This document shows, one piece after another, positions 20,066-33,143 of a DNA stretch of 35,869 nucleotides (positions within the stretch are counted from its first letter, which is position 1; each line of letters begins with the position of its first letter). The notes below the pieces were generated by a model. The model was not told the origin of the DNA, did not search any database, and worked only from the letters and a program-made list of their open reading frames with translations. The DNA is from Gemmatimonadota bacterium (GTDB lineage: Bacteria > Gemmatimonadota > Gemmatimonadetes > Gemmatimonadales > Gemmatimonadaceae). The stretch lies in assembly GCA_947461225.1 (NCBI GenBank), contig CANHJV010000018.1, forward strand, positions 1 to 35,869, read 5' to 3'. The translations under genes and the position numbers were made by a program.

Positions 20066-20680
20066 TTACTTCGGGGGGAGCTTGGCGAGCAGGCCGCGCA
20101 TGATGCCGATCTCAGCGGTCTGCGCACTTACGACATCGTTCGCGAAAGTGTTGGCATCCACTTCCTGACCGGCGCCTTTCACCTTGAAGAGATCGTCGAC
20201 CATCTTGAGGGCACCCTCGTGGTGCTTGATCATGCCGACGAGGAAGAGCCGGTCGAACATCACGCCTTTCGCCTTATCGAGCGCCGCGATTTCCTCGTCG
20301 TTCAGCATGCCATCCATTCGCATGCCATGCCATGAGGCGGTGTCCGGTGCAAACTGGCCATACCGCTCGAGCCAGTGCTGCATGATCTGAATTTCGGGCA
20401 CCTGCGACTGATCGATCTTCCGCGACAGCTTGAGCACCTGCGGATTGGCGCCGTTCTTTTCCGCCAAGCGCGACATCACAATCGCCTGCGCGTGGTGAGC
20501 GATCATCCCCTGCATGAACTCCACGTCTGCCTTGGTGTACAGCGCGCCATTCGGGATGACGATCTCGGGGCCCATGTGGTGCATGCTGTGATCCATACCC
20601 GCCTGAGCGGATGCGGACGCCGAGGCGCCAACCAGCAGGGAAAGGACCGAGAACGCGAGAATCGGACGTCGGGCCATCAT
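20066..20680 (-). CDS. DUF305 secreted metal-binding-type protein
   Basis: A 204-residue exported protein. The ATG of MMARRPILAFSV was chosen: it starts a signal peptide (ending near SASAQ) and has GGAG 10 bases upstream. The mature N-terminus, GMDHSMHHMG, is rich in Met and His. The domain holds two DUF305 helices with the motifs MIAHHAQAIVMS and MIKHHEGALKM, each with an HH pair spaced like a metal site, and IQIMQHWLERY between them. Family members are ferritin-like helical bundles often linked to copper tolerance. It is the first gene of a two-gene unit with the LVIVD protein, which suggests that the two act together outside the cytoplasm. Confidence 0.9.
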   Translation of the reverse strand: MMARRPILAFSVLSLLVGASASASAQAGMDHSMHHMGPEIVIPNGALYTKADVEFMQGMIAHHAQAIVMSRLAEKNGANPQVLKLSRKIDQSQVPEIQIMQHWLERYGQFAPDTASWHGMRMDGMLNDEEIAALDKAKGVMFDRLFLVGMIKHHEGALKMVDDLFKVKGAGQEVDANTFANDVVSAQTAEIGIMRGLLAKLPPK

Positions 20681-20881
20681 GGCGTGTCTGCTCCAGGAGA
20701 GTGCCGGCCCTGTCTGCAGGCCGACGGGCGGGAGAACCGTGTACGGAGAACCAATAGGAGGATACGACCTGCGGCGCCGCCGCACTAGGCATCACGGGCA
20801 CCCGCGCCGAACCAGTCCCCCGCAACCCGCTCCCGCGTCGGCTGGTCACGACCGGGGAACGCGTGGAGGAAGTCAGCCACA

Positions 20882-20915: not shown

Positions 20916-21836
20916 TCAACCGACTGACGACTCACCACCGCCGAGCACTTCCGTGGGCCGCCGGGCAAGCAACGTGCGCAACAGCGGCGGCTGATACTGC
21001 CGCGTTACGCTGATCGCGTGAAACTCCTCGAAGAGATCCGGCACCGCACAGTATTCCTGCAGCACGCCGTCGCGGAGCTCGTCGCGCACCACCACCGCCG
21101 GCACCAGCGCCACGGCCTTGAGTTCGCGGGCCAGCAGGCGCAGCATCGCCATGTCATCCGCCTCGGCGATGATCGTCGGACGCACACCGCGCTCATCGCA
21201 GCGCACGTCGAAGGCCGTGCGAAACTCGTGATCGCGCGACGGCAGCAGCAGCGGCACGTCGGCCAACTCGTCGGGATACCGGAACGGTGCGCGGCGCGGC
21301 GGCCCGATGAGACTCACCTGCTGCCGCGCGATCCGCCGACTCCGCCAGGCATGCTCCGCATCCTCCGGCACGCGCCGATTGGAGAGCACCACGTCGAGCG
21401 TGTGCGCGCGCAACCGCGTCAGCAGCTCCGCCAACGAGCCCGACTGCAGCGAGAGCGACAGCGACGGATCCTGCAGCACGGGAGCGAGAAACGCGCGCTG
21501 GAAGTTGCGCGACAGCGTGGCCACCGAGCCCACCCGCAGCACATGCCGTTCGGCTCGACGCCCGTCGCGCAGCGTCCCCACCAGTTCGTTGCCGGCGGCG
21601 ACGATGGTGTCGGCATAATCCAGCGCAATGCGGCCGGCCTCGGTGAGCTCCAGGGTGCGCCCGCGTCGCTCGAAGAGGGCCTGACCGAGCTGCGCTTCGA
21701 GTTGCCGGATCTGGGTGGACAGGGCCGACTGCGACACGTGCAGGCGCTGCGCCGCCCGCGTGAGGTTACCCTCGCGCGCGACGGCCCAGAAGTAATGCAG
21801 GTGGTGGTAGTTGAGTCGGGCTGGGACGTCGGTCAT
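20916..21836 (-). CDS. LysR-family transcriptional regulator (NhaR-like), likely regulator of dabBA
   Basis: A 306-residue regulator of normal LysR length. The winged helix-turn-helix occupies about residues 7-66 (LNYHHLHYFWAVAREGNLT, then AAQRLHVSQSALSTQIRQLE, then LFERRGRTLELTEAG). The YHHLHYFWAVA start is characteristic of the NhaR-like branch. A periplasmic-binding-like effector domain spans about 95-290 (VLRVGSVATLS, LDVVLSNRRVP). It is transcribed away from dabB across a 93-base region, the classic LysR arrangement in which the regulator controls itself and the divergent operon. LysR genes also accompany dab loci in chemoautotrophs. The effector is unknown; a signal of carbon dioxide or bicarbonate shortage, or pH or sodium given the NhaR resemblance, is plausible. 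Confidence 0.92.
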   Translation of the reverse strand: MTDVPARLNYHHLHYFWAVAREGNLTRAAQRLHVSQSALSTQIRQLEAQLGQALFERRGRTLELTEAGRIALDYADTIVAAGNELVGTLRDGRRAERHVLRVGSVATLSRNFQRAFLAPVLQDPSLSLSLQSGSLAELLTRLRAHTLDVVLSNRRVPEDAEHAWRSRRIARQQVSLIGPPRRAPFRYPDELADVPLLLPSRDHEFRTAFDVRCDERGVRPTIIAEADDMAMLRLLARELKAVALVPAVVVRDELRDGVLQEYCAVPDLFEEFHAISVTRQYQPPLLRTLLARRPTEVLGGGESSVG

Positions 21837-21840
21837 AGTT

Positions 21841-21882
21841 CTGTAAAAGGGAACGATTGGAAGTATAATATGTATTTTACAG
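21841..21882. promoter_or_regulatory. Divergent lysR/dabB promoter and candidate operator
   Basis: Perfect 8-bp inverted-repeat arms CTGTAAAA (21841-21848) and TTTTACAG (21875-21882) flank a 26-base centre. A consensus -10 box, TATAAT (21864-21869), sits between them on the dabB strand, with the left arm at the place of a weak -35. The region is markedly AT-rich compared with its surroundings. This layout suits a LysR-type tetramer controlling both genes. Confidence 0.65.
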
Positions 21883-21929
21883 CACGACTACCATTGGTCA
21901 GCTTCATGGGGTCCTTCATCGGAGACCTC

Positions 21930-23378
21930 ATGCCCACTGCGCTCGGCACCGCCGCGCTGTTCGCCATACCGCCCCTCGCGCTCGCCGCCGCCCCGCGGCT
22001 CGACGCGCTGTCCGGCGTCATGCTCACGCTCGTCACCTTCATCGCGCTGGTGATTCATCGCTACGCGCGTCGGTACCTCGACGGGCAACCGGCGGCGGCA
22101 CACTACCGCCTCTGGTTTACGGCGACCGTCGCGGCGGCGTCGATTCTCGTTACCGCGGGCGACCTGCGAGTGCTCGCGGTGGCCTGGACGCTCTCGAGTC
22201 TCTCGGTGTTCCAGCTGCTCAGCTTCTTCGCCGACCGGCCACAATCCCAGGTGGCGGCGCACAAGAAATTCCTGCTCAGCCGCCTCGCCGACGTGGCCAT
22301 CTACGCCGCCGTGTTTCTCATCGGCCGCGCCTTCGGCACGTACGATATCGCGGGCGTGGGAGCGGCCGCCGCCGCGCTCAACGCGCTCCCCGCCAGCGTG
22401 CATGCCGCGGGCTACCTGATGGTGGCTGGCGTCGCGCTGCGTTCGGCCCAGCTGCCCTTTCACGGCTGGCTCATTCAGGTGATGGAAGCACCGACGCCCG
22501 TGTCGGCGCTGCTGCACGCGGGGGTAGTCAACATCGGTGGCTATGTGCTCATTCGGCTCGCCGCCCTTATGGGACTGCTGCCCGGCGCTATGACGGCACT
22601 GGTGGTGATCGGCGCGACCACCGCGGTGCTCGCCTCGCTCGTGATGACCACGCGCGTGAGTGTGAAAGTCGCCTTGGCCTGGTCGACGGCCGCCCAGATG
22701 GGGTTCATGCTGCTCGAGTGCGGCCTGGGGGCATGGGAGCTTGCCCTGCTGCATCTCGTCGCGCACTCGTGCTACAAGGCCCATGCCTTCCTGAGCTCCG
22801 GCGGCGTGGTGGCCGTGCACGCGCGGCGCCCCCTGGCGGTGCCCGCACCACGTGTGAGTGTGTGGCGGTGGAGCATGGGCGCCCTTGGCGGCGCGGCGAT
22901 CGTGGTGCTGGCCGTACTCATCGCGTGGCCGAACGTCACAGCAGATCCGCGCGCCTGGGCGCCCTTGGGCATTCTCGCGCTGTCGCTGGCGCCGTTCTTC
23001 GTCCGCCTGCCGCTCGCTCGGTCGTGGCGCACGAGCGCCACGCTGCTCGGTGCCGCTGTGGGCGTCACGGCGCTCTATGCGGTGTGGCATGCGGCCTTTA
23101 CCGCGCTGCTCCCCACCCCCGTGGCCTTCGTGCCGGGGATCGCGTCGGTCGCGATCGCGCTCGGCGCCTTCGCGGGCCTCTTCGTCGTGCAGGTGCTCGT
23201 GTCGGTGCGCCCCGCGGGGAACACCGCGCGCACCCTGCAGGCGTGGGCCTTCGCCGGCTTCCATCTCGATGAACTCTTCACGCGTGCCACGTTTCTGGTG
23301 TGGCCGCCGAAACACGTACGGCGAGCCACCATACGCCTGCGCGCCGTCACCACGACCTCGCACGAGAGGACCGTCTGA
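21930..23378 (+). CDS. dabB: DabB: membrane subunit of the DAB inorganic-carbon complex (complex-I-like proton-translocating protein)
   Basis: A 482-residue polytopic membrane protein of the NuoL/MrpA family. The ATG of MPTALGTA has GGAG 5 bases upstream, which favours it over in-frame ATGs at 21870 and 21906. At least 12 hydrophobic helices are visible. The family signature LPFHGWLIQVMEAPTPVSALLHAGVVN lies around residues 175-202, with conserved Glu and Lys residues of the ion path. Instead of Nuo neighbours, the gene is followed by dabA with a one-base stop/start overlap (TGATG), which identifies it as the cation-driven DabB subunit. By family knowledge it uses proton (or sodium) flow to drive one-way CO2 hydration by DabA. 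Confidence 0.93.
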   Translation: MPTALGTAALFAIPPLALAAAPRLDALSGVMLTLVTFIALVIHRYARRYLDGQPAAAHYRLWFTATVAAASILVTAGDLRVLAVAWTLSSLSVFQLLSFFADRPQSQVAAHKKFLLSRLADVAIYAAVFLIGRAFGTYDIAGVGAAAAALNALPASVHAAGYLMVAGVALRSAQLPFHGWLIQVMEAPTPVSALLHAGVVNIGGYVLIRLAALMGLLPGAMTALVVIGATTAVLASLVMTTRVSVKVALAWSTAAQMGFMLLECGLGAWELALLHLVAHSCYKAHAFLSSGGVVAVHARRPLAVPAPRVSVWRWSMGALGGAAIVVLAVLIAWPNVTADPRAWAPLGILALSLAPFFVRLPLARSWRTSATLLGAAVGVTALYAVWHAAFTALLPTPVAFVPGIASVAIALGAFAGLFVVQVLVSVRPAGNTARTLQAWAFAGFHLDELFTRATFLVWPPKHVRRATIRLRAVTTTSHERTV

Positions 23379-25873
23379 TGCCGTCCACGATGCACCGGCA
23401 CACGCCGGGCACCGCCACGCCCGAGACGCTGCACGCCATCGATGTGGCGTGCGCACGCATCGCCCCCGCCTGGCCGCTGGATCGTTTAATCGCCGTGAAT
23501 CCATGGTGGGGGTACGTGGACCATCCCATCGAGCAGGCGGCGGCCGAACTCGCGTCGCTGGGTGGTGGGCGCCTCACGATGCCGCGCGCGTGGTTCCGCG
23601 CGCGACACACAGCCGGCGTCTTGACCGACGCGCATGTGGCACGCGCGCATGCGATGCTCGGCGCCACGATGCCGCTGGCCGACGTGTACGCGGCCCTGCG
23701 TCATGACGACTCGGCGCTGCCGGCGTGTACGCTCATGCCCGATCTGGTGGACAGCACGCGCAATACAGAGCGCGGCACCGCGTGGCGCGATTTCGTCGTG
23801 GAGCACGTCAGCCACACCTGCGGCGCATGGTTCGGCGAGGGGCAAGCGTCGTGGCCCGCCGTGCGCGATGGTGGACTCTATGGCCTCTGGCACGACATGT
23901 CCCGACAGGACGCCGGCGTGCGCTTGCAGATGGGGCATCGCGGTTTTCGCGAGGCCGTAGCCGAGCTGCCGCGCAACCCGCAATTACTCATCGCGCACGC
24001 GGTCCACGAACTGGCCGTGCCGCCGGCGCTGCAACCCACGTATTTCACCGCCTTGCTGCTAACGGTCTCCGGCTGGGCCGCCGCGTGCGCATTTCAACGC
24101 TGGGAGGCGCGTCTTGCCGGCAGCGAGGACGACCAGATCGTGCACCTGCTGGCGGCGCGGCTGTCGTGGGAGTTGGTGCTCTACCGCACGAGCGGCGGTC
24201 CCACGCTCGCGACGCGCTGGTCTGAGGCCCGTGGTTCGTGGACTGGCGTTGCCGACGCACTCCGCCAGGCGCAGGCCGCCGACTGGGTGCTCCAACGCGC
24301 CATAGAGCTGGCATATCAAGAGCCGCTGGTGGCCCAGCTCGCGGGAACGCGCGAACTCGCGACGACCACGCCCTCGGTGCAGGCGGTGTTCTGCATCGAC
24401 GTGCGCTCAGAGGTGATGCGCCGCGCCCTCGAAGCCGCGGTGCCGACCGTGCAGACGCTCGGCTTCGCCGGCTTCTTCGGGATGCCGATTGCCTACGCCG
24501 CCGTCGACGGCGCCATCCGTCCACAATTGCCCGGGTTGCTGTCGCCCGCGTTCGTGGCCACCGATGCCGGTGCCGATGCCGCGGAGATGGTGGACCGACG
24601 CCGTGAGGCGGCCGCGGTCGCGCAAGCGTGGAAGTGGTTTACCGGCACGGCGGCATCGGCGTTTACGGCCGTCGAGGCCACGGGGCTGGGCGCTGCCGTG
24701 TCGCTCCTGCGTCAGACGTTCGCCCCAGCGACGGCGCCGCTGGATCCCCTGCGCGACGAACTGGCGCGGGCCGGCGGGGCGCTCTCGCCGCGTCTCACGA
24801 CAACCGTGACCGGCGGCGATGCACCGGATCTGGCCACCCGCACTCAGCTGGCGGCCAACGCCTTGCGTGGCATGAGCCTCACGAGCGGATTCGCGCGCCT
24901 GGTGGCGCTGGTGGGACACGGCGCCACCACCTGCAATAATCCGCAGGCGGCGGGGCTCGCCTGTGGGGCGTGCGGTGGACAGAGCGGCGAGGTGAACGCG
25001 CGCGTGCTCGCCGCCCTGCTGAATGACGGCGCGGTGCGCGAGGCACTGATCACACACGGCATCACCATCCCGGCCACCACGCACGTCGTGCCCGCCGTGC
25101 ACGACACCGTATCCGATGAGATCACCTGCTTCGACCTCGGCGACGTGCCGGCGTCGCATCGTGACGACCTTCAGGCGTTCCAGCGGGCGATCGTCGACGC
25201 CGGAGCCCGCGCGCGTCGTGAGCGGGCCCCGCGCCTTGGCCTTAATGTCGCCACGCTGACCGACGATCGCCTACTGCAGCTGCTGCGTCGCCGTGCCTCC
25301 GACTGGTCGGAAGTGCGACCCGAGTGGGGACTCGCGCGCAACGCGGCCTTCGTGATCGCCCCCCGTGAGCGTACCCGCGACCTCATGCTCGACGGGCGTT
25401 CGTTCCTGCACGAATACCGGTGGCAACAGGACGCCGGTGGTGCCGTGCTGGAGCTGATCCTCACCGCACCGATGGTCGTCACGAATTGGATCAACCTGCA
25501 ATACCACGCCTCCACCGTCGATCCGCTGCGCTACGGCAGCGGCGACAAGGTGCTGCACAACGTGGCCGGCGGGAACGTGGGCGTGTTCGAAGGGGCCGGT
25601 GGTGATCTTCGCATCGGACTCGCGCTCCAGTCGGTGCACGACGGCGCAGACTGGATGCATGAACCGTTACGCCTGTCCGTCTTCGTGGAGGCACCGGCCG
25701 AGGCGATCGACAGCATCATCGCGAAGCACGCGGTGGTGCGACAGCTGGTCGAACACGGGTGGCTGCACCTGTTTCGCATCGATCCCGCGGAGGGCAACGT
25801 GTACCGGCGCGGCGCGGAAGCGTGGCACGCCACGCGCTCCGATCACGGCGAGGTCTCGGCGCGCCGCGGCTGA
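23378..25873 (+). CDS. dabA: DabA: zinc-dependent, carbonic-anhydrase-like subunit of the DAB inorganic-carbon complex (DUF2309)
   Basis: An 831-residue, largely soluble protein in the family formerly called DUF2309. It starts inside the dabB stop codon, with GAGAGGA 7 bases before the ATG, so the two are translationally coupled. The four zinc-site residues of the characterised Halothiobacillus protein are visible here: Cys339 and Asp341 in FCIDVRSE, His514 in GHGATTCNN and Cys529 in LACGACGG. The 15-residue spacing between His and second Cys is the one I recall for that protein. VNPWWGYVDHPIE near residue 40 is another family signature. By known biology DabA hydrates cytoplasmic CO2 to bicarbonate at the membrane, energised through DabB. 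The 3' end lies 8 bases from the convergent epimerase gene. Confidence 0.95.
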   Translation: MPSTMHRHTPGTATPETLHAIDVACARIAPAWPLDRLIAVNPWWGYVDHPIEQAAAELASLGGGRLTMPRAWFRARHTAGVLTDAHVARAHAMLGATMPLADVYAALRHDDSALPACTLMPDLVDSTRNTERGTAWRDFVVEHVSHTCGAWFGEGQASWPAVRDGGLYGLWHDMSRQDAGVRLQMGHRGFREAVAELPRNPQLLIAHAVHELAVPPALQPTYFTALLLTVSGWAAACAFQRWEARLAGSEDDQIVHLLAARLSWELVLYRTSGGPTLATRWSEARGSWTGVADALRQAQAADWVLQRAIELAYQEPLVAQLAGTRELATTTPSVQAVFCIDVRSEVMRRALEAAVPTVQTLGFAGFFGMPIAYAAVDGAIRPQLPGLLSPAFVATDAGADAAEMVDRRREAAAVAQAWKWFTGTAASAFTAVEATGLGAAVSLLRQTFAPATAPLDPLRDELARAGGALSPRLTTTVTGGDAPDLATRTQLAANALRGMSLTSGFARLVALVGHGATTCNNPQAAGLACGACGGQSGEVNARVLAALLNDGAVREALITHGITIPATTHVVPAVHDTVSDEITCFDLGDVPASHRDDLQAFQRAIVDAGARARRERAPRLGLNVATLTDDRLLQLLRRRASDWSEVRPEWGLARNAAFVIAPRERTRDLMLDGRSFLHEYRWQQDAGGAVLELILTAPMVVTNWINLQYHASTVDPLRYGSGDKVLHNVAGGNVGVFEGAGGDLRIGLALQSVHDGADWMHEPLRLSVFVEAPAEAIDSIIAKHAVVRQLVEHGWLHLFRIDPAEGNVYRRGAEAWHATRSDHGEVSARRG

Positions 25874-30306: not shown

Positions 30307-32679
30307 CTACGCGCCCCCCCGCACCCCGGCCCCCGCCCGCGTCTGCCAGCCCGCCAACTGCTTGCCCACCGGCAACTGCCGCACGCGCACACCGGTCGCC
30401 GCGAAGATCGCATTGGCGATGGCCCCGCCCGCCGGCGGCACGCCAGGCTCGCCGATGCCACCGGGCAGTTCTTCGCTCGCCACCAGATGCACGTCGACCA
30501 CCTGCGGCGCCGCCCGCATGCGCGTGACGCCGTAGTCGCGGAAATTCGACTGCACCACCTTGCCGCCAGCAAACGTCACCTCGCTGGTGAGCAGGTTGCT
30601 CATCGCCATGATCACCGCCCCTTCCATCTGCGCCCGCGCGCGATCAGGGTTGGCGATGAATCCCGCGTCCACGGCCACCGTGGTCTTCGGTACCAGCACC
30701 GTGCCATCGGGCTGCACCTCGACTTCCACCACCATCGCCACGTACGACAGGAAGCTCCGATGGATCGCGATGCCGCGCCCCCTGCCACGTGGCAGCTTCG
30801 CGCCGCGCCATCCGCTCCGCGCAACGGCCAACTCCACCACGCGACGGGCGCGGGCGATATCAAGTGGATGATCCGCCCACGTCGCGCCGTAGTTACTGGC
30901 CGGCGCCACCAATCCCGCCATCGACAAATCGACCACGCGATCGGGGCCCAGTAATCCCAGCAGGAAGTCCGCCGGATCTTGCTTCGCCGCATACGCCAAT
31001 TCGTCCACGAACGAACCGATGGCAAAGCCGTGATGAATCGCGTTCACGCTGCGGTACCAGCCGATGCGCGTATGCGCCACGGCAGGACAGATCTCGACGC
31101 GCATGTTCGGAATATCGAACGGGATATCACTCGCGCCGTTCGTGAGTTCATCGGGCTCAGCGCCAGTCACATTCGGCGCGAACGTAGCACCGATGGCCGG
31201 ATACGCCGACCGGTGCAGCCACGCCGTCACCGTGCCGTTCGCATCGAGCCCCGCCTCGAGACGGTGCGCCGCCACCGAATGCAGATATGAATTGCGCAGA
31301 TCATCCTCGCGCGTCCACTGCACACGCACCGGGGCGCCCACTTCGCGCGACAGGAACGCCGCCTCGCACATAAAATCCGGCTTCGATTTGCGACCGAACG
31401 CACCGCCCAGCAACGTCACATGCACCGCCACGTTCGCGGCGTCGATCTTGAGATACTGCGCCACAGCGTTGCGTGCGTCCTGCGGTGATTGCGTGGGCGC
31501 CCACACCTCCACCGTGCCGTTCGCCACATGGGCCAGTGCCACCACCGGCTCCATCTGCGCATGCGCCAGGTGTGGCATGTAGTACTCCGCCGTCACCCGC
31601 GTCGCCGCGCCCGCCATTGCCTTTGGCACATCGCCCACGGCACGCCCCGCCTTGCCCGGCGCCCGCACCGACGACAACAGCGTGGCCTTATAGGCCGTGC
31701 TGTCGTACGTCGCGTTGGGGCCGTTGTCCCACGTGATGCGCAGCGCGTCACGGCCGCGGATCGCCGCCCACGTGTTCTTCGCGATCACGGCCACACCACC
31801 CAATGGGAAGAACGCGCCCGGCAGCGGCGTCTCGGGAATACGCACCACCCGCTCCACGCCCGGCACGTTCAGCGCGAGACGATCGTCGACCGTCAGCACC
31901 GTGCCGCCCCACACCGGCGGCCGGCTGATCACCGCCACCTTCATCCCCGGCAGCGTCATATCCGCGCCGTACACGGCGGTGCCCGTCGTCATCGGCACGA
32001 GATCGACCGACGGCATCCGCTTCCCTTCCCACCGCCGCTCGCTCGGCGCCTTAATCCGCACGCGCTCTTTCGCCGGCATGGGAATCGTGCGGGCCGTACC
32101 CACCAGCGAGGCATAGGACTTGGTGCGGCCGCTCGGTGTGTGTACCACGGCACCGTTGCTCGCGCGTACCTCGCCAACCACAACGCCCCACTCCTTGGCG
32201 GCCGCATCTTCGAGCAGCGCGCGCACCGTGGCGCCCGCTTCGCGATAGGCCGGCAGGAAATCCCGGATGCTGGTGGAGCCGTCGGTGTTCTGGGTGCCGT
32301 ACTTCTTGTCGTCGCCGAGGGCCTGCTCCACGCGGCAGTTAGCCCAGTCGGCTTCCATCTCGTCGGCAATGATCATTGGCATCGTGGTGCGGATACCCTG
32401 CCCCATCTCCGAACGATGACACATGATCGTGATGATGCCGTCGTCGCCGAGGCGCACGTACGCATGCGGCTCCCACGGCTCGGCGTTCGGCGCGAAGGGC
32501 GCATCGGCAGCCTCGAGCCGTCGCACACCAAGGGTGCTGGCGGCCACGAGCAAGCCCCCCAGGCCCAGCAGCTTCATGAACGCACGACGATGCGTGTCGA
32601 GCGCACCAGCGGATGTCGTCGTGACGTCAACCGGTTCGATCGGCGCGGACATCCACGGCAATCGCTGTTGCGCGCTCAT
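30307..32679 (-). CDS. Molybdopterin-binding large subunit of a periplasmic aldehyde/isoquinoline oxidoreductase-type hydroxylase
   Basis: A 790-residue protein of the xanthine-oxidase family, IorB-like. The start ATG overlaps the small-subunit stop by 4 bases (ATGA). A Tat signal is present (Arg31-Arg32 in [13 protein letters not shown]), so the folded enzyme is exported to the periplasm with its cofactor. Molybdopterin-pocket stretches include [30 protein letters not shown] and, near the C-terminus, [19 protein letters not shown] with Glu744 as the likely catalytic base. Members oxidise aldehydes or N-heterocycles. There is no FAD subunit, as in IorAB, so electrons should pass to a cytochrome or quinone. 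No cytochrome gene is adjacent, unlike many related operons. Confidence 0.92.
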
Positions 32680-33143
32680 CGCGTGGCCTCCGCCGCCGCC
32701 TTGATGGCGGCGCGAATGCGGGGGTACGTGCCGCATCGACAAATGTGACCGTTCATGGCCGTATCGATCTCGGCCTCGGTCGGCGTGCTGTTCGTCGCGA
32801 GCAACGTGGCCGCCTGCATGATCTGACCGCTTTGACAGAACCCGCACTGCGGCACGTCGATCTCGCGCCACGCCACCTGCAGCGGATGCGCACCGGCGGG
32901 ATGCAACCCCTCGATGGTGGTCACGCTGGCATCGGCCAACGACTGCATGCGCCGCTGACAGGCGCGCACGGGAGCCCCGTTCACGTGCACCGTACAGGCG
33001 CCGCACTGCGAGATCCCGCAACCGTATCGGGTGCCCGTGAGTGCGAGTTCGTCGCGCAGATACCACAGCAGCGGCATCGTCGGATCGCCGTCGAAGATTC
33101 GACGAACGCCGTTCACGGTGAGAGCGATGGGGGCGGTGCTCAC
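32676..33143 (-). CDS. [2Fe-2S] small subunit of the molybdenum hydroxylase
   Basis: A 155-residue protein with two [2Fe-2S] clusters. The plant-ferredoxin-like cluster uses Cys42, Cys47, Cys50 and Cys62 ([12 protein letters not shown] and AC). The second uses Cys100, Cys103, Cys135 and Cys137 (QCGFCQSG and HICRCGTY). All eight ligands are present, as expected for the IorA/XdhC-type subunit. The start is GTG, with GGAG 5 bases upstream. It has no signal peptide and is probably carried to the periplasm by the Tat-tagged large subunit. The stop overlaps the large-subunit start by 4 bases, which ensures equal synthesis. Confidence 0.94.

Follow-up and report, generated by a model that had tools for sequence, protein, structure and literature searches.

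How non-autotrophic bacteria time the use of an energy-costly CO2 pump when they also possess an ordinary carbonic anhydrase (CA) is the question raised by a locus of a Gemmatimonadota bacterium of the family Gemmatimonadaceae. The locus lies in contig CANHJV010000018.1 of assembly GCA_947461225.1, which was analysed over its entire 35,869 nucleotides (hereafter the window); it is contig C18 of a draft genome of 3.71 Mb in 264 contigs that is 88.7% complete. The locus comprises dabB and dabA, the genes of an inorganic-carbon pump, and a divergent gene for a LysR-type regulator. All three genes are intact, which bears out a first-pass annotation of the window that had described dabBA as a complete operon accompanied by a LysR gene of its own. 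A bipartite operator lies in the gap between lysR and dabB, and its presence at other DAB loci goes together with that of an orthologous regulator. We consider it likely that this dedicated LysR activator switches on a CO2-to-bicarbonate pump, driven by the proton-motive force (PMF), for carboxylations other than that of RuBisCO. The features of the locus are as follows.

20916-21836, minus strand: lysR ("DabR", a name proposed here), LysR-type regulator of 306 residues, divergent from dabB
21838-21855, plus strand: operator part 1, inverted repeat GTTC-N9-GAACG, putative LysR recognition site
21873-21880, plus strand: operator part 2, TATTTTAC, 17 bp past part 1, putative activation site overlapping the dabB -35 element
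21930-23378, plus strand: dabB, NuoL/Mrp-type membrane subunit of 482 residues with a short N-terminus (PF00361/PF00662)
23378-25873, plus strand: dabA, beta-CA-like catalytic subunit of 831 residues, with zinc site C339/H514/C529 and a D341-R343 dyad

An operator between lysR and dabB

The operator, GTTC-N9-GAACG-N17-TATTTTAC (21838-21880), has 0 mismatches in the window. It is the sole bipartite match there at up to 3 mismatches, and 0/100 dinucleotide shuffles of the window contain one. Its last bases, TTTAC, coincide with the predicted -35 hexamer of dabB (TTTACA, 21876-21881). LysR-type regulators have a recognition site near -65 and an activation site near -35 of the divergent promoter, and the layout of the operator in the sequence fits this arrangement.

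The operator was initially spotted by eye in the lysR-dabB gaps of the very loci that give the following counts. Mismatches were counted over its 17 fixed bases in 31 LysR-linked loci, including the window, and in 16 unlinked ones. At up to 4 mismatches, it is found in 29/31 linked loci as compared with 2/16 unlinked loci, and 24 of the linked loci have it at up to 3. The linked loci distribute as 0 mismatches in 10, 1 in five, 2 in four, 3 in five, 4 in five and 5 in two. Two Halieaceae account for the unlinked sites, with 1 and 3 mismatches, and the remaining 14 unlinked loci have at least 5. In 9400 mononucleotide-shuffled regions, matches at up to 3, 4 and 5 mismatches were found in 8, 53 and 423 cases, respectively. 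The N17 spacing is rigid across loci, and a -10-like hexamer (TATACT- or TATAAT-like, up to 2 mismatches) is found 16-18 bp further on in 22/31 loci, versus 1042/6200 shuffles (17%).

In 30 of 46 named DAB loci, an orthologue of the regulator is encoded divergently from dabB; by their record titles, these loci belong to Gemmatimonadota, Pseudomonadota, Acidobacteriota, Actinomycetota, Myxococcota and one 'Sericytochromatia' metagenome-assembled genome (MAG), all the non-proteobacterial ones being MAGs. The distances between the LysR proteins co-vary with those between the DabA proteins (Mantel r 0.85, with 0/2000 permutations as high; 30 of the 31 LysR-linked loci, L107 being left out). Among 179 genomes of the family, 13 have a LysR orthologue at 290 bits or more, all 13 also have DabA, and the next match is at 157 bits. 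One of the 13 (G050) has a lysR fragment and the dab genes on separate contigs and was left out; the other 12, all readable, have the operator at the same spacing with 0-4 mismatches. The count is 0 in G000 and G023, 1 in G044, 2 in G074, 3 in G048, G134, G139, G147 and G149, and 4 in G054, G073 and G075. Five of these 12 sites were counted by eye, and five of the genomes (G000, G023, G074, G075 and G134) are also represented among the 31 loci.

Independent evidence comes from a set of plasmids, the seven further family loci and genome scans. For the plasmids, a 50-column matrix trained on the 31 loci was applied to unseen loci of ~8-13 kb. Fifteen loci from differing genera were read out of 122 plasmid records with DabA, having been chosen among the matches listed before matrix scoring. 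Three of them (L163-L165) had been scanned with the simple pattern before the matrix, and their best sites, with 4 mismatches each, were in the expected place. In 13 of the 14 annotated loci, the best matrix site of the locus is 47-74 bp upstream of dabB, and in the unannotated fifteenth (L176) it is between lysR and the dabB open reading frame (ORF), giving 14/15 sites just before dabB. The sole miss is that of 'Candidatus Thiodictyon' (L169), whose LysR is unrelated (55 bits, as against 224-305 bits for the other 14).

In some loci the regulator gene is displaced and the operator is still at dab. In a Methylobacterium plasmid lysR is found beyond dabA, on the far side, and in a Mesorhizobium plasmid a HAD gene separates lysR from dabB; in both, the operator is still before dabB. 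In Pseudohaliea and another member of the Halieaceae, the operator is present at dab but the 4.4 and 3.5 kb upstream, respectively, are free of lysR; both genomes have a second copy of the operator (2 mismatches) beside a lysR orthologue elsewhere in the genome. These displaced lysR loci (L160:3632-8646 and L161:780-6823) encode a Usp protein, a second LysR and a SulP transporter, together with a beta-CA in L161 only.

Over all plasmid records, the LysR family occurs in 108 and DabA in 122. Records in both lists include 58 of Phaeobacter, 10 of Leisingera and seven of Pantoea, and six Haloarcula records with DabA are absent from the LysR counts among the matches listed. On an Azospirillum plasmid, a gene annotated as gamma-carbonic anhydrase (L167:5893-6486) adjoins the dab lysR.

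Several observations weigh against the explanation favoured here. Many sites are imperfect, with 3-4 mismatches, a level at which the pattern also arises by chance, and 140/179 family genomes have a match at up to 3 mismatches somewhere. At up to 2 mismatches, a scan of the 46 named genomes finds the true pattern hardly more often than its reverse (28 versus 22 matches), and one site with 0-1 mismatch (G199) lies away from dab. The window's own -10 element for dabB is a poor match, with 3 mismatches. Finally, two Alteromonas loci (L094 and L096) have a LysR that is 39% identical (~235 bits) and does not adjoin dabB, and the operator is missing there; we did not count this LysR as an orthologue. 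Because chance matches are common at 3-4 mismatches, weak sites are credible only by their position at dab or lysR. At 0-1 mismatch, 15/16 sites in the 46 genomes are dab sites. The family-genome sites were viewed individually among the matches listed up to G093, in addition to the dab loci read. In the host genome, the only bipartite match at up to 3 mismatches beyond the dab site is on contig C72, with 3 mismatches, and we thus rejected a broad regulon there. Directly readable from the sequences are the genes with their key residues, the operator, and its association with this LysR. The common operator before the pump genes of many distant bacteria suggests a shared adjustment of carbon supply.

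The predicted pump and the identity of its regulator

The start of dabB was taken to be the ATG at 21930, since it is preceded by GGAG (21921-21924) at 5 nt, the strong ribosome-binding site already noted in the first-pass annotation. We rejected three other starts. The one at 21018, which gives the mechanically longest ORF, runs antisense through lysR; that at 21870 falls inside the operator; and that at 21907, chosen by a farthest-ATG rule, would leave nearly no leader if the predicted -35 is right. The stop/start overlap described between the two pump genes was likewise found, with base 23378 common to the TGA of dabB (23376-23378) and the ATG of dabA (23378-23380).

DabA scores 833 bits with the Pfam family of that name (PF10070), whose cut-off is 25. 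Its residues 19-814 match the solved DabA2 chain 9rd0_A (phmmer E 2.9e-165), a subunit of DAB2 of Halothiobacillus neapolitanus (PDB 9rd0/9rd8/9rd9; PMC13144422). The four zinc-site residues named at first pass, Cys339, Asp341, His514 and Cys529, are present, and C339/D341/R343/S344/H514/C529 align with C351/D353/R355/S356/H524/C539 of that chain. Also kept are A364 and L652, the counterparts of DAB2 Ala376 and Leu658, by which DabA2 differs from ordinary beta-CAs, as well as E433, the finger glutamate, which corresponds to Glu444. The 11 key positions, those named in the accessible text of PMC13144422, are invariant in 44/44 aligned rows, after removal of three of 47 rows in which DabA is only partial (L107, L114 and L115).

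DabB matches 9rd0_B (E 2.6e-74) and retains all seven mapped proton-path residues (S256, H260, K310, S316, H339, H343 and K347), as well as R182 and D185. Assignment to the DAB family is thus supported by PF10070, by the zinc Cys/His/Cys and Asp-Arg dyad, by the finger glutamate, and by an adjoining PF00361 DabB with a proton path; subunits, zinc site, dyad and proton path are those described for DAB2. The window differs from DAB2 in that K235 is replaced by Arg and I151 by Thr, in that no RuBisCO was detected in its host, and in that DabB has one predicted N-terminal helix fewer, its residue 18 pairing with residue 82 of DabB2. The short N-terminus recurs in L101, L107, L073 and a one-contig genome of the same genus, G044, and an assembly fault is therefore unlikely. 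A simple scan of hydropathy indicates that DabB lacks one N-terminal helix in the window, L101 and L107 and lacks both in four loci of Rheinheimera and two of Pusillimonas (L098, L102, L104, L113, L117 and L118). These losses are perhaps independent of each other.

The LysR protein matches HTH_1 (PF00126) and LysR_substrate (PF03466) above the Pfam cut-offs. The first-pass label 'LysR/NhaR-type' stands for its first half, that of a divergent LysR, whereas the likeness to NhaR proved distant. NhaR (NF008284) is the best NCBIfam match, but its score of 143.5 bits does not reach the cut-off of 219. Escherichia coli NhaR, which is also of the LysR family and has a similar N-terminus (NYxHLxYFW), is 29% identical to the protein of the window, as compared with 44-90% for dab-adjacent LysRs. 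We thus rejected the identification of the regulator as NhaR. In the LysR tree the branch of E. coli NhaR has a length of 8.5, and its placement is therefore uninformative. With the one CbbR model listed in NCBIfam (NF045990), the protein scores 56.5 bits, short of the cut-off of 450.

The NhaR match does raise another explanation for the locus, in which DAB would act by Na+/HCO3- symport like MpsAB, or else as a pH or sodium device, and the LysR would respond to sodium or pH in the manner of NhaR. The accessible text of PMC13144422 gives the argument that MpsAB uses sodium and that it rescues an nhaAB-deficient strain. In addition to the low NhaR score and identity, the proton-path residues and DabA zinc site match those of DAB2, found sodium-independent in the same source, and the displaced LysR orthologues of the two Halieaceae neighbour SulP transporter genes and, in one case, a beta-CA. 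On balance, we regard the sodium or pH explanation as unlikely.

A proposed bicarbonate supply in a probable photoheterotroph with carbonic anhydrase

The first-pass annotation took the host for an apparent heterotroph, which should be amended to photoheterotroph. Contig C3 of the same genome (L162:2244-11235) encodes bchC, bchX, bchY, bchZ, pufL and pufM, each above its NCBIfam cut-off, a set that constitutes a photosynthesis gene cluster. As bchCXYZ and pufLM are present and RuBisCO is undetected, the host is most simply read as an anoxygenic photoheterotroph, a lifestyle that the accessible text of PMC8547001 reports for freshwater Gemmatimonadota. The nearest named loci by DabA identity (69-71%) are those of Gemmatimonas/Gemmatimonadetes MAGs, two of which are also the nearest by LysR.

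A genome check for RuBisCO and CAs, proposed at first pass, gave a divided answer. No RuBisCO was detected in the draft, phosphoribulokinase and non-Calvin pathways not having been searched, and neither alpha-CA nor phosphoenolpyruvate carboxylase was detected there, gamma-CA not having been searched. A CA, by contrast, is present in the genome: contig C137 encodes a Can-like beta-CA with C-x-D-x-R and H-x2-C, which we take to be the beta-CA motifs.

This enzyme bears on the notion that the pump substitutes for CA and alone provides bicarbonate, in the way of MpsAB in Staphylococcus aureus. DAB and CA are reported to be interchangeable in staphylococci (accessible text of PMC8567241), and among the 30 LysR-linked named genomes there are four without a beta-CA match. 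However, beta-CA is present not only in the host but also in 39/46 named genomes, in 26/30 LysR-linked ones, and in 34 of the 35 family genomes with DabA, the remaining one being a MAG of 71% completeness (gamma-CAs were not searched). We therefore rejected DAB as a substitute for a missing CA in the family, and substitution in general appears slightly less probable than the sodium or pH explanation. Least likely of all is that DAB feeds an autotrophic pathway overlooked in a draft of 264 contigs and 88.7% completeness, since the host has no RuBisCO match (phosphoribulokinase and non-Calvin pathways were not searched), RuBisCO at 400 bits or more occurs in just 1/30 LysR-linked named genomes versus 7/16 unlinked ones, and the accessible text of PMC8547001 describes MAGs of phototrophic freshwater Gemmatimonadota as devoid of carbon-fixation genes, even if all four family genomes with RuBisCO matches of at least 397 bits have DabA.

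We thus favour a dedicated activator of a PMF-driven pump that serves carboxylases other than RuBisCO. In such a scheme lysR-dabB-dabA would be a self-contained cassette, and DabB, the proton channel, and DabA, with its buried zinc and beta-CA-like site, would form the DAB complex. Judging from residue identity, the PMF would drive one-way hydration of CO2 to cytoplasmic bicarbonate, which would go to anaplerotic and biosynthetic carboxylases. Bicarbonate supply, the role suggested at first pass, is plausible. In the host, part of the PMF may come from anoxygenic photosynthesis.

The regulator would bind GTTC-N9-GAACG and, approximately three helical turns on, the TATTTTAC box beside the dabB -35 element. 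The layout and what is generally known of LysR regulators suggest that it activates dabBA. Divergent LysR regulators usually repress their own genes, and this one probably does so as well. Our best guess for the signal is low CO2 or bicarbonate, or else a metabolite that reports starved carboxylation; we give low inorganic carbon itself about an even chance. In the published model, the one-way hydration of CO2 by DAB2 depends on a membrane potential (accessible text of PMC13144422). An argument against the favoured scheme is that a co-expressed cytoplasmic beta-CA would undo bicarbonate accumulation (accessible text of PMC8552792). With a cytosolic CA present, the pump should therefore run only when needed, and a conditional regulator would be sensible.

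A broader proposal is tentative, and we hold it with somewhat less than even confidence. The LysR may found a distinct subfamily, a dedicated switch for inorganic-carbon limitation in mostly non-autotrophic bacteria, which, together with its operator and dabBA, crosses phyla as one cassette, partly on plasmids. In photoheterotrophs such as the host, light-derived PMF would then drive an anaplerotic, RuBisCO-free capture of CO2.

Related systems and distribution in the family

That DAB occurs outside autotrophs is not unexpected, as DABs are already reported in heterotrophs (PMC13144422), and MpsAB, the DAB homologue of the non-autotroph S. aureus, has been studied and is required for growth in air (PMC8567241; both sources in their accessible parts). 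MpsAB differs from the system described here in that Na+/HCO3- symport has been proposed for it and in that S. aureus has no CA, whereas the genome of the window has one. A literature search for MpsAB together with LysR found nothing.

The gene arrangement was also in print. The 'clade A' nuoL-ybcC operons of COGNAT (PMC5700660, 2017) have the same order, a reversed LysR gene 5' of a nuoL homologue and ybcC (=dabA); the accessible section on clade A mentions neither an operator nor a regulon or a role in carbon supply. The present analysis contributes the two-part operator, its association with orthology of the LysR, and the cases in which the regulator gene is displaced. We found no description of the operator or of the LysR function in the literature, most subscription papers being outside our coverage, so that their absence from print is unproven.

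With an operator now defined and a regulator that apparently has a single target, conserved from Gemmatimonadota to Proteobacteria, the timing of the pump can be put to a direct test. Promoter and regulator form a ready pair for a biosensor that might respond to CO2 or bicarbonate. The photoheterotrophic host, for its part, suggests that light-driven PMF and anaplerotic CO2 uptake may be linked, which is likewise testable.

DabA is found in 35 of the 179 family genomes and beta-CA in 158. RuBisCO-family proteins occur in 24, of which 20 have matches only at 130-175 bits (RuBisCO-like); the four with at least 397 bits (G052, G139, G140 and G150) are possible autotrophs. The dab loci of the family have two architectures, a compact one with lysR/dabB-dabA and a longer one with dabA and two antiporter-like genes beside a SulP-like transporter gene. 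Some compact loci have no LysR orthologue, e.g. those of G055, G058, G068 and G088. A long-type locus of the window's genus, read by eye (L063:3305-10205), codes for a DabA of 974 residues, two antiporter-like proteins and a SulP-like transporter, and it fits COGNAT clade C (SulP, NuoM) as described in the accessible text of PMC5700660. In G140, G146 and G154, beta-CA matches are located 2-5 kb from a long-type dabA on the same contigs.

Elsewhere in the window, a gene that adjoins lysR on the same strand (20066-20785) codes for a DUF305 protein with a CopM metallochaperone match of 87.9 bits, just below the cut-off of 90. The gene at 30307-33066 codes for a large molybdopterin-binding oxidoreductase subunit with MoCoBD domains.

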